Origin: Adhaeribacter rhizoryzae | Lineage (GTDB): Bacteria; Bacteroidota; Bacteroidia; Cytophagales; Hymenobacteraceae | Assembly (NCBI RefSeq): GCF_008629685.1 | Contig: NZ_VWSF01000028.1 | Coordinates: 1-64,000, forward strand | Direction: 5' to 3' | DNA length: 64,000 nucleotides | Shown here: piece by piece, positions 16,139-62,682 of the stretch | Layout of the letters: each line of letters starts with the position of its first letter | Numbering within the stretch: the first letter of the stretch is position 1 | Position numbers and translations under genes: made by a program | The notes under the pieces: generated by a model | Told to the model about the DNA's origin: nothing | Seen by the model: the letters and a program-made list of their open reading frames with translations, nothing else | The model's database searches: none

Positions 16139-16302
16139 AGTTGTTAGTAATTAGATATTAGTAATTAGTGTTAAGGTAAACACACAAAAATTTGTTGTTC
16201 TTATTAATTCATTATTTTATCTCTATCCATATACTGCTACTAATTATTAATACCGTAAAGCCCAAAACTAACACCTAACCACTAATAACTAACCACTACA
16301 AC
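16139..16302. repeat. heptad inverted-repeat element A
   Basis: It fills the space from the DUF3822 stop to the coaD ATG. Left arm 16139-16172 and right arm 16266-16302 are imperfect inverted copies. Each is built from 7-base units of the type TTAGTAA/TTAGTTA. The middle is AT-rich and unrelated to that of the other copies. See elements B, C and D. Confidence 0.75.
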
Positions 16303-17416: not shown

Positions 17417-17518
17417 CAGAATTTTTACTTAAAGAGATTACAAATCAAAAAAAATAAATCGGAAACAAAAATGCCTGAGGATAAAAAAGGCAAAATTATT
17501 ATTACGTACCTTCGCCTT

Positions 17519-18157
17519 ATGCAAAAGTCTAATACAGCCCTGCAAATAGCCAGTTATTTATTAGAAACTGGCGCGGTTAAGCTACGCCCCGAAACCCCGT
17601 TTACCTGGAGTTCCGGTTGGCTCTCACCAATTTACTGCGATAACCGGGTAACGTTGTCTTACCCCGCTATACGTAGTTTTATCAAAAATGCTTTGTCCGA
17701 AGAAATACGGATGCACTTTCCGGAAGTTGAAGTTATTGGCGGTGTAGCTACTGCCGGCATTGCCCAGGGGGCACTGGTAGCCGATTTACTTGACCTACCC
17801 TATATTTACGTACGTCCCGAACCCAAAAGCCACGGCATGGGCAACCAGATTGAAGGCCGCTTGCTACCCGACCAGAAAGTAGTTTTAATAGAAGATTTAG
17901 TTTCGACGGGCGGTAGTTCTTTAAAAGCAGCAAGTGCGGTAAATGTGGCTGGTGGTAACGTTATTGGCATGGCCGCCATTTTTACTTACGGTTTCGAAAA
18001 AGCTACCCAGAATTTTAAAGATGCCAATATTCCGTTGGTGTGCCTGAGCAACTACCAAAACTTACTGGGGATTGCTTTAGAACAAGGTTATATTCAAACC
18101 GAAATGCTCGAAACCCTGAGCAGCTGGCGCAAAGCCCCCGAGAGGTGGAAAAAGTAA
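17519..18157 (+). CDS. pyrE: orotate phosphoribosyltransferase
   Basis: Transfers phosphoribose from PRPP to orotate in UMP synthesis. The PRPP-binding motif is VLIEDLVSTGGSS. FTWSSGWLSPIYCDNR is the N-terminal orotate-site region and RPEPKSHGMGNQIEG the flexible catalytic loop. An in-frame ATG at 17471 would give 228 residues. The ATG at 17519 gives 212, which is the normal family length, and follows TACCTTCG, a near match to the -7 box. I therefore prefer 17519. Repeat B begins right after its stop codon. Confidence 0.92.
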   Translation: MQKSNTALQIASYLLETGAVKLRPETPFTWSSGWLSPIYCDNRVTLSYPAIRSFIKNALSEEIRMHFPEVEVIGGVATAGIAQGALVADLLDLPYIYVRPEPKSHGMGNQIEGRLLPDQKVVLIEDLVSTGGSSLKAASAVNVAGGNVIGMAAIFTYGFEKATQNFKDANIPLVCLSNYQNLLGIALEQGYIQTEMLETLSSWRKAPERWKK

Positions 18158-18366
18158 ACAGTTTATAGTGAACAGTTAGCAGTAAACAGTTAGCAGTTAT
18201 TAGTAATCAGTTGTTAGTTATTATTGGAATTAATAATAGCTGTAAACAAATTGAAATCCTGGAGATGAAATTAATAATGAAATATCTATTAGCAAAACTG
18301 TTTACTGCTAACTAATTGTTGATTACTGATTACTAATAACTGTTTACTGCTAACTGTTCACTGTAA
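18158..18366. repeat. heptad inverted-repeat element B
   Basis: It fills the whole gap between pyrE and the phosphoesterase gene. A 26-bp perfect inverted repeat (18167-18192 and 18337-18362) is made of 7-base units such as ACAGTTA, GCAGTAA, TTAGTAA and TCAGTTG. Further units continue inward on both arms. The left arm carries one extra 7-base unit (GCAGTTA) relative to the right, showing gain or loss in whole heptads. Confidence 0.85.
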
Positions 18367-18867
18367 ATGAAGATTGGCTTAATATCGGATACGCATAGTT
18401 ACCTGGATGAGCAAATATTGCGGCACTTACAGGATTGTGATGAAATCTGGCACGCCGGTGATTTTGGTACGATAGCTGTTTCGGAAGTATTGGCAGCAGT
18501 GGCTCCTTTGCGGGGCGTTTACGGGAATATCGACGATCAGCAAATCAGGCAATTACACCCCAAAGTTCAACGATTTTCGGCCGCGGGCTTAGATGTGCTC
18601 ATGACCCATATTGGCGGCTACCCGGGTAAATATCATCCAGATATCAGAACCGTAATTACCACTAACCCGCCGCAGCTATTTATTTCGGGGCATTCCCATA
18701 TACTCAAAATAATGCCGGATAAATCGCGGAGTAATTTGTTGCATATAAATCCGGGGGCGGCCGGAAAGCACGGCTTTCACCAGATACGAACACTCGTAAA
18801 ATTTAATATTACGGCCGGTAAAATAGCGCAGTTACAAGTAGTAGAATTAGGAAAACGCGTAGCCTGA
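18367..18867 (+). CDS. metallophosphoesterase (YfcE/MJ0936-like)
   Basis: 166 residues of the small calcineurin-like phosphodiesterase family. Metal-binding motifs are in order: SDTH (D8, H10), HAGDFG, GNID, THIGG and GHSH. Family members cleave phosphodiesters with Mn; the natural substrate is unknown. The ATG follows repeat B almost directly, so the repeat's right arm would form its leader. A hairpin follows the stop. Confidence 0.88.
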   Translation: MKIGLISDTHSYLDEQILRHLQDCDEIWHAGDFGTIAVSEVLAAVAPLRGVYGNIDDQQIRQLHPKVQRFSAAGLDVLMTHIGGYPGKYHPDIRTVITTNPPQLFISGHSHILKIMPDKSRSNLLHINPGAAGKHGFHQIRTLVKFNITAGKIAQLQVVELGKRVA

Positions 18868-23831: not shown

Positions 23832-24114
23832 ACTAAGGCTTGTTTGGGTATTTATTTTAGGAATTTTAAATTTATAAAACTTACCGGAATTTAAACGCTA
23901 ACGAACAAAATACCGCGGATTGGTTTCAGAATAAAAGTTAAATATTATATTTGTTGAATATTTATAAACCCGTTCAAAATGCTTTAAAAGCAATTGATTT
24001 TGTTTAACAGAGTAGGCATACGAGCTTAACGAAAAATTAAATACAAAAATTTTTATAAATCATCCAAAACAATTACTTTAGCCTTACAATCCGTATAAGT
24101 AACCTATATAAAAA

Positions 24115-24441
24115 GTGGAAGAGAACAACGAAAAAGCTGAGATTTATTCACAACGAATAAGAGCTGGGAAAAGGACGTATTTTTTTGATGTGAAGTCAAC
24201 TCGCTCAAACGATTACTACCTGACGATCACAGAAAGTAAAAGAAAATTTAAGGATGAAACCTACTCATACGAGAAACATAAAATTTTCCTTTACAAAGAA
24301 GATTTCGCTAAGTTTGTTGAGGCGCTCCAAAGTACCATCGACCACGTAAAATCCGAGCTTCTAACCGAAGATGTGCTGGCAGAACTGGAAAAACAATCGC
24401 AGGAACCTGCCACCCTCGACGACGAACTGAAGTGGGAATAG
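24115..24441 (+). CDS. PUR-alpha-like nucleic-acid-binding protein (DUF3276)
   Basis: 108 residues of the bacterial PUR family, which binds single-stranded nucleic acid through a PUR repeat. GKRTYFFDVKSTRSNDYYLTI is the first beta sheet, followed by the helix FAKFVEALQSTIDHV. The acidic tail (LDDELKWE) is typical. The start is GTG at 24115; no in-frame ATG precedes it. Its own terminator follows. Role in vivo is unknown. Confidence 0.85.
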   Translation: MEENNEKAEIYSQRIRAGKRTYFFDVKSTRSNDYYLTITESKRKFKDETYSYEKHKIFLYKEDFAKFVEALQSTIDHVKSELLTEDVLAELEKQSQEPATLDDELKWE

Positions 24442-44272: not shown

Positions 44273-44451
44273 GTTCGTTATTCGTTAATCGTTGTTCGTT
44301 ATTCGATTCTTATATCCTGGCTGGTGTTTTCAACGGCCAGCCAGGCAACTTAAAAAATTGCGTCCTGTATTATTTATAAATCTACTTTTTGCTCCTTCCA
44401 TAAATATATATAAGAGAACGAACAACGATTAACGAACAACGACTAACGAAA
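44273..44451. repeat. heptad inverted-repeat element C
   Basis: It spans exactly menB stop to menE start. A 20-bp perfect inverted repeat, TTCGTTAATCGTTGTTCGTT (44281-44300) and complement (44417-44436), is built from 7-base units of type TTCGTTA/ATCGTTG, with more units outside it. The middle carries another hairpin, CCTGGCTGG with CCAGCCAGG (44316-44345). Confidence 0.85.
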
Positions 44452-48833: not shown

Positions 48834-48920
48834 ATTAGTCCATCCTGTCATGCAAGAGCAAACTATTTAGCAGGCAGCCAAATAGTTTCCTCCTGAATGA
48901 CAGTAGTAGGGTTCTTAAAA
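48834..48920. repeat. dispersed palindromic repeat, copy 2
   Basis: The right arm TTTCCTCCTGAATGACAG is identical to that of copy 1; the left arm (CCTGTCATGCAAGAGCAAACT) has diverged. The flanks ATTAGTC and the stretch after the right arm also match copy 1 in the same orientation. A third degenerate half-unit (CTGTCATG, then ATTTAGTAGG) precedes it at about 48793-48830. Confidence 0.75.
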
Positions 48921-48992
48921 CTTCTTCTGCAAAATCTTTTTAACTGTTCTGGCAGTAAAGAGAATTTAAATTTCTGAACTTAGTTAAATTAA

Positions 48993-61857: not shown

Positions 61858-62019
61858 TTTTTTCGTTGTTCGTTAATTGTTGTTCGTTATTCGGAAACTT
61901 GAAATAATTATTAGGTTATAAAAGCAGAAGCACCAAATAAATGTGGTGCTTCTGCTTTTTAAAGATTATTCAATTATCAAGATCCCGAACAACGAGTAAC
62001 GAGCAACGATTAACGAACT
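61858..62019. repeat. heptad inverted-repeat element D with central terminator
   Basis: It fills the gap between convergent lepB and ung. Left arm 61862-61894 (TTCGTTG, TTCGTTA, ATTGTTG, TTCGTTA, TTCGG) and right arm 61985-62018 are imperfect inverted copies made of the same 7-base units as element C. A strong terminator occupies the centre. Confidence 0.8.
61920..61959. terminator. bidirectional terminator lepB / ung
   Basis: A 15-bp perfect stem (AAAAGCAGAAGCACC and its complement) has a 10-base loop and a T-run, in the centre of repeat D. Confidence 0.85.
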
Positions 62020-62682
62020 TCACCAATCGATTGGTTTCTGACCTTGTGCTTGCAAATATTGATTGGTTTTGCTGAAATGCCGGCAACCAAAAAAGCCTTT
62101 ATCTGCAGCAAACGGAGATGGATGGGCAGCGGTAAGAACATGATGTTTTCGGCTATCGATTAAAGCACCTTTTTTCTGCGCATAAGCGCCCCATAATAAA
62201 AATACCAAGCCTTCTTTCTGTTCCGATAATTGCTGAATAGCGGCATCAGTAAATTCTTCCCAACCTTTTTTCTGGTGCGAACCCGCCGAGTTAGCTCTTA
62301 CTGTTAAAGTAGCATTCAGCAGCAATACGCCTTGCACCGCCCAGCGCTCCAGGTTACCCGATTTTGGAATTTCTTTACCCACATCGTCTTTTATTTCTTT
62401 AAAAATATTCCTTAAAGAAGGCGGCGGCGTAACGCTCTCCTGCACCGAAAAAGCCAGACCGTGCGCTTGCCCCGGACCATGATAAGGATCTTGACCAATC
62501 AAAACTACTTTAACCTGATCGAAAGGAGTTTTTTCGAAAGCATTAAATATTAAGCTGCCGGGCGGAAACACCTGGTGCGTAGCATATTCTTCTTTTACAA
62601 AGGCAATTAGCTTTTTAAAATATTCTTTCTGAAACTCCGGTGCCAGTACCCGATGCCAGCTTTCTTCTATTTTTACGCTCAT
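62020..62682 (-). CDS. ung: uracil-DNA glycosylase
   Basis: 220 residues, family 1. GQDPYHG holds catalytic Asp65, and PPPSLRNIF, LLLNATLTV and HPSPFAA (catalytic His) follow. It removes uracil from DNA at the start of base excision repair. ATG 62682. Its stop lies 1 base after the right arm of repeat D. Confidence 0.97.
   Translation of the reverse strand: MSVKIEESWHRVLAPEFQKEYFKKLIAFVKEEYATHQVFPPGSLIFNAFEKTPFDQVKVVLIGQDPYHGPGQAHGLAFSVQESVTPPPSLRNIFKEIKDDVGKEIPKSGNLERWAVQGVLLLNATLTVRANSAGSHQKKGWEEFTDAAIQQLSEQKEGLVFLLWGAYAQKKGALIDSRKHHVLTAAHPSPFAADKGFFGCRHFSKTNQYLQAQGQKPIDW

Follow-up and report, generated by a model that had tools for sequence, protein, structure and literature searches.

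Degenerate tandem arrays of 7- or 8-base units lie against the edges of genes in the genome of a soil-dwelling Adhaeribacter (Bacteroidota; 6.52 Mb; G000) and in its relatives. Their position at a coding edge, their strand polarity, the unit of 7 or 8 bases, and their location in gaps crossed by polymerases were invariant, whereas the letters of the units were free to vary. The arrays are classed here as a letter-independent variant of the heptad repeats of the Xanthomonas type and are probably a strand-polar border element for transcription.

Four inverted arrays in the window

The window, i.e., the whole 64-kb stretch of DNA analyzed (C21:1-64000), carries four such elements, designated copies A, B, C, and D (Table 1). 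A first-pass annotation of this DNA had described four spacers sharing one design, two inverted arms of heptads around an unrelated middle; all four were recovered, and the design extends genome-wide (see below). In copy B, the sequence AGTGAACAGTTAGCAGTAAACAGTTA (18167-18192) has its reverse complement at 18337-18362, with 26 of 26 bases identical and 144 bp between the two, and the left arm is longer by one heptad, GCAGTTA, than the CTAACTG-like right arm. Both the perfect repeat and the one-heptad difference had been pointed out in the annotation, and its view that units are gained or lost as whole heptads is upheld. The same annotation had placed the elements from stop to start. This is true of the gaps of copies A, B, and C but not of copy D, which lies in a convergent gap running from stop to stop, and the rule therefore reads "coding edge to coding edge."

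Strong lag-7 periodicity within the window was confined to copies A, B, and C. That of copy D was weaker, and this copy was detected by the heptad profile; its gap is a quasi-palindrome with 77-nt arms centered on a terminator. The RNA folding z-score was only -1.7 (-1.65) for copy A, which makes copy A weak, compared to -9.8, -8.5, and -12.2 for copies B, C, and D, respectively, and these extreme folding energies arise because the arrays are inverted. The genes beside all four copies are ordinary, and no Rfam family match was found in the window. A palindromic repeat of another kind, of the CATCCTGTCATGCAAGAGC..CAAATAGTTTCCTCC type, occupies window positions 48843-48926; it has dozens of matches in G001, on either strand, and looks like a dispersed REP/MITE-like family.

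Table 1. Parts of copies A to D and their neighbors, in window coordinates
Feature	Position	Strand	Description
Copy A left arm	16139..16172	+	TTAGTAA heptads; 0 bp from DUF3822 gene stop
Copy A right arm	16264..16302	-	TAGTGGT/TAGTTAT heptads; adjoins start of CTP_transf_like gene (coaD-like)
Copy B left arm	18158..18220	+	CAGTTAG heptads; 0 bp from stop of pyrE-like gene 17471-18157
Copy B middle	18221..18308		Unmatched in the rest of the own genome; arms alone matched
Copy B right arm	18309..18366	-	Adjoins ATG of Metallophos_2 (phosphoesterase) gene 18367-18867
Copy C left arm	44273..44307	+	TTCGTTA heptads; 0 bp from enoyl-CoA hydratase gene stop
Copy C inner hairpin	44316..44345		CCTGGCTGG..CCAGCCAGG
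Copy C right arm	44417..44450	-	ATG of AMP-binding gene 1 bp downstream
Copy D left arm	61863..61893	+	Signal peptidase gene stop 5 bp upstream
Copy D central terminator-like hairpin	61920..61959		Similar hairpin present in G001 and at the G002 gap, which lacks arms
Copy D right arm	61986..62018	-	1 bp from stop of convergent UDG (uracil-DNA glycosylase) gene 62020-62682

Abundance and unit families in the genome

The own genome was surveyed in stretches amounting to 1.17 Mb for degenerate tandem arrays at lags 4 to 13. Period-7 arrays were present in 24 of the 605 gaps, compared to 0.7 expected under a Markov null, and period-8 arrays were present in 5 of the 605, again compared to 0.7. Each of the other lags gave 0 to 3 gaps, and only 1 of 917 genes contained a period-7 array. 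The heptad pattern CGTTNNTCGTTNNTCGTT, with 1 mismatch allowed, had 110 matches in the own genome compared to 12 for the reversed control. The excess of heptads over chance that the annotation had assumed is thus borne out. Inverted pairs at gap edges with a score of at least 14 numbered 26, some of them plain terminators, compared to 1 after the edges of neighboring gaps were swapped. Overall, the arrays occupy only ~5% of the gaps.

The units fall into several 7- and 8-base families, among them TTCGTTA, CAGTTAG, TTAGTTG, TAATGTGCT, and ACGTGGT. The suggestion that a single unit fits all copies therefore fails at the scale of the genome. In most of the occupied gaps, one family was common to both edges. 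Different families were seen at opposite edges of the gaps C1:324194-324427 and C34:265265-265384 in G000 and of the gap L234-L235 (G005 23949-24161), and a change of family along the length of an arm was seen at C1:255228. At C1:7379-7541 (L061) of G000, an unbroken heptad array in a single register shifts from CAGTTAG to CAACTAA and fills most of the gap; apparently, this array represents two arms fused without a middle.

Placement and strand polarity

Across the array-bearing species, 97 arrays were found. Of these, 92 were assignable to a gap, and a coding edge was at most 60 bp away in 87 of the 92; seven AT-rich low-complexity matches had been removed by hand from these placement and polarity counts. 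Read from the edge to the interior of the gap, the strand was G-rich in 77 of the 87 edge arrays and C-rich in 5. The same polarity held for arrays that had no matching partner (28:4; P = 2e-5), which means that the polarity is independent of a partner. Because the inward strand is G-rich, the RNA is poor in G and rich in C and A directly upstream of a start codon, and rich in G and T directly past a stop codon.

The median distance of the paired elements was 2 bp to stops and 9 bp to starts; the start edges are less sure than the stop edges, since the gene calls came from a simple ORF picker. Their outer fraction was 0.10 (KS P = 1e-22), and the earlier impression that the elements abut coding sequence on both sides is well founded. 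Pairs were absent from divergent gaps (0 of 175, compared to 33 of 699 other gaps; Fisher P = 0.0012) and equally frequent in convergent and co-directional ones. One apparently divergent element, in G003, stemmed from a miscalled gene; an ORF with a TTG start runs up to the arm, and the gap is co-directional.

Orthologous gaps in related species

The closest named relative is Adhaeribacter aerolatus (G001), whose pyrE protein is 91% identical. For 26 elements in 69 orthologous gaps of the Adhaeribacter relatives, 32 pairwise cases of recurrence in the same gap were counted; 20,000 permutations yielded 4.2 on average and at most 18. The letters did not recur in the same way. For example, the units in gap C were TTCGTTA in the own genome, TTAGTTG in G001, GTTGTTAG in G003 and G005, and GTAGCAG/GTATCAG in G004 and G007. 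The median arm match score was 19.8 between the two arms inside one gap compared to 9.5 for the same arm across species, a contrast that is somewhat inflated because within-gap pairs were preselected for matching. That relatives keep the gaps and the design and repeatedly swap the letters points to a strand-oriented, rather than sequence-specific, border element. A sister species, Adhaeribacter G002, had zero arrays in 280 kb, where G007 had ~20 in an equal length, and its gaps B and D were short and had no arms.

The annotation had expected the arms to match as stems in relatives. Both arms do match, mostly as members of a shared family; the locus-specific part beyond family membership was significant and small (22.5 compared to 21.2; P = 0.006). 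The two arms therefore look like one family acquired together and later drifting by units.

In Rufibacter, inverted arms stood against the stop and the start of gap B (the pyrE gap) in 16 of 16 species, with four unit families among them; in L288 and L292, which were weak or masked by a central hairpin in the automatic score, the arms were scored by eye. Placed on a tree of pyrE and the phosphoesterase, the families needed 8 changes compared to 7.6 with shuffled labels, and two well-supported sister pairs disagreed in unit family. Species with different families had only a core hairpin of the middle in common, and the right 50 nt gave a z of 0.2. The description "conserved middle, arms alone replaced" was consequently dropped for Rufibacter and kept for gap D alone. 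The core hairpin, GTTTTNGGGCTNNTTTTCNGAAAANNAGCCCNAAAAC, occurs in the pyrE gaps L278-L294 with compensatory changes between species, is present twice in L285, and is probably a dispersed terminator-like repeat. Two nonsister Rufibacter species, L278 and L282, share the entire pyrE gap (z of 29), each being unlike its own sister, and introgression or retention of an ancestral gap is possible.

Beyond these genera, period-7 arrays rich in GC, for example, GTGCGTAGTGCGGG and GACCGCGGACGGCG, were seen in G037 and G119 (L272-L275), distant Bacteroidota with 55-68% GC. Judged by such period-7 arrays, the phenomenon is probably phylum-wide.

What the arrays may do and how they may arise

A fixed position, polarity, unit length, and crossed gap together with free letters favor an effect of strand composition on transcription at gene borders. 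Our leading candidate, held tentatively, is that the arrays are strand-polar border elements in which strand skew and position matter, the letters matter little, and the effect would be on transcription. Slippage of units would lengthen and shorten the arrays, and a copying event at the DNA level could give one family to both edges of a gap together. The arrays might then persist through strand composition acting on transcription across the gene border. For instance, a polymerase leaving a gene over a G-rich nontemplate strand may pause or end, and read-through and antisense RNA would be kept out of the neighboring gene. The polarity (77:5 among the 87 edge arrays and 28:4 among unpaired ones) argues for such a border element, as do the pinning to edges (medians of 2 bp at stops and 9 bp at starts) combined with 0 of 175 divergent gaps, and the same-gap recurrence (32 cases, above the permutation maximum of 18). 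So does the occupation of all 16 Rufibacter gaps by four families with as many changes (eight) as for shuffled labels, and the arms carry no G-U signature. GGGAATC repeats of Xanthomonas and GGGGATT repeats of Nostoc have been reported with this placement and this polarity as well (PMC4692102). Against it are the occupancy of only ~5% of gaps and the lack of any array in 280 kb of G002, and a function at each edge would not by itself explain the high share of gaps with one family at both edges. Rho is unlikely as a general acting factor because cyanobacteria, which carry similar arrays, are reported to lack it. An internal promoter was also considered and rejected; the Bacteroidota promoter motif TAnnTTTG was not enriched in the middles of co-directional elements (1 of 22 compared to 38 of 174 in the background).

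Next in rank, as a minority possibility to be taken seriously, is a neutral by-product, in which slippage-prone 7- and 8-mers and template switching across quasi-palindromes make and recopy the arms, purifying selection excludes them from coding sequence, and the arrays expand until they touch genes. Slippage linked to the polymerase footprint has already been proposed for heptamers (PMC4692102), and an excess at periods 7 and 8 only, indels of whole heptads, and the 77-nt-arm quasi-palindrome of gap D with the terminator at its center are all consistent with a neutral by-product. So are inner hairpins near the center (mean offset of 0.22 compared to 0.5; P = 0.01) and a locus-specific arm matching that is small but significant (P = 0.006). 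However, a neutral process predicts neither the strand polarity of unpaired arrays (28:4) nor the absence from divergent gaps, the repeated replacement of the family at one site, or the complete absence from 280 kb of G002. The suggestion in the annotation that the arrays are an RNA hairpin controlling the next gene fared worse. Such an element, whose arms would pair in a gap-spanning transcript and thereby join stop and start or mask the start, coupling or insulating neighboring genes, agrees with the very stable predicted folds of copies B, C, and D (z-scores of -8.5 to -12.2) and with the depletion of pairs in divergent gaps. Cyanobacterial heptad hairpins have also been suggested to couple translation or to stabilize transcripts. 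Under selection for pairing in the transcript, however, G-U-type mismatches should outnumber A-C-type ones, and in 38 co-directional gaps, there were 48 of the former and 45 of the latter. The data therefore do not support an RNA hairpin under base-by-base selection. Unpaired arrays retain the polarity, pairs are equally common in convergent gaps, and within a family, pairing is nearly as good between loci as inside one gap; we consider the RNA reading unlikely.

The annotation had also proposed a mobile or expanding element. Expansion fits the data, whereas insertion in one piece does not, since the interiors are unrelated and the terminator hairpin of gap D is also present at the arm-less G002 gap. 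The copies thus do not constitute an ordinary MITE; matches of the gap B query at other loci were limited to the arms, and between species, middles of different families had at most the core hairpin in common. A looser version, in which an enzyme spreads array families between loci and species and favored gaps are reoccupied, ranks below the RNA hairpin and is quite unlikely. It would account for the presence of the same families in different genera (TAATGTGCT in both Adhaeribacter and Rufibacter), for switches of family that do not follow the tree, and for the absence of arrays throughout the 280 kb surveyed in G002. Yet copies in the own genome share arms and not middles, and in gap D, the arms surround a hairpin found without arms in G002. 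The RVT_1 reverse transcriptase is missing from G000 and G003, both of which carry arrays, and the RAYT transposase (Y1_Tnp) is not discriminating, being found in 8 of 8 genomes, including the array-less G002. Finally, a dedicated trans-acting system that writes strand-polar 7- or 8-base arrays on both sides of a gap, in a single event for each gap and with letters open to change, and that was lost whole in the G002 lineage, seems improbable.

Comparison with known repeat systems

The annotation regarded the inverted arrangement between stop and start as undescribed. In fact, it has been published for Xanthomonas by Rehm et al. 2015 (PMC4692102), who reported paired convergent heptads near stops and starts, rare between divergent genes, and proposed G-quadruplexes; arrays of TAACTGA before starts were described by MacGregor 2015 (PMC4679880) in Beggiatoaceae, cyanobacteria, and five Bacteroidetes and explained, in Beggiatoaceae, by a TAACTGA-binding protein. 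The GGGAATC and GGGGA(C/T)T repeats of Xanthomonas and Nostoc resemble the arrays here in most respects. They are intergenic with period 7, lie at most 50 bp from a stop (on the coding strand) or a start (on the opposite strand), form inverted pairs (70-75 in Xanthomonas), are underrepresented between divergent ORFs, and occur at the same genes with variable sequence. The intergenic 7-nt excess, the placement of the G-rich strand, and the rarity in divergent gaps were all found here, whereas a G-tract unit was not. The units TTCGTTA, CAGTTAG, TTAGTTG, and others contain no GGG, and a quadruplex is not expected. Also unlike the Rehm repeats, the arrays here comprise many families, 8-mers included, and one family gives way to another at a single conserved site when sister species are compared.

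The TAACTGA arrays end just upstream of starts in the forward orientation, as here, and occur in some Bacteroidetes. They are, however, direct repeats with one inverted case, whereas the arrays here form inverted pairs across the two edges of a gap and belong to many unrelated families. The kinship with cyanobacterial STRR heptamers suggested in the annotation is upheld; these are an older finding, 7-bp intergenic hairpin-forming repeats (between hupS and hupL) that vary among relatives (Jackman and Mulligan 1995, as far as its accessible part shows); site-by-site replacement of families is not described in the accessible part of that literature. A fixed TAACTGA or STRR consensus does not apply here, since there are many families and only that of copy B is TAACTG-like. 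MITEs and REP/REPIN sequences are likewise short, dispersed, intergenic inverted repeats, but the arrays here have no common interior or conserved palindrome, and their arms consist of heptads in tandem, anchored at coding edges.

As far as a search of the openly accessible literature shows, what is new is that the design occurs in Bacteroidota, with units of two lengths that lack G-runs; that families are replaced wholesale at a conserved site between sister species; that unpaired arrays are polar too; that the G-U test was negative; and that one sister species is free of arrays. The same placement, polarity, and pairing hold here for units that fit neither a G-quadruplex nor a TAACTGA-binding protein, and between sister species, a site stays in place as its letters change, which means that the architecture is separable from its sequence. 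This suggests a common cause across phyla, and the 16 array-bearing Rufibacter species together with one array-free Adhaeribacter form a comparative system for finding it.
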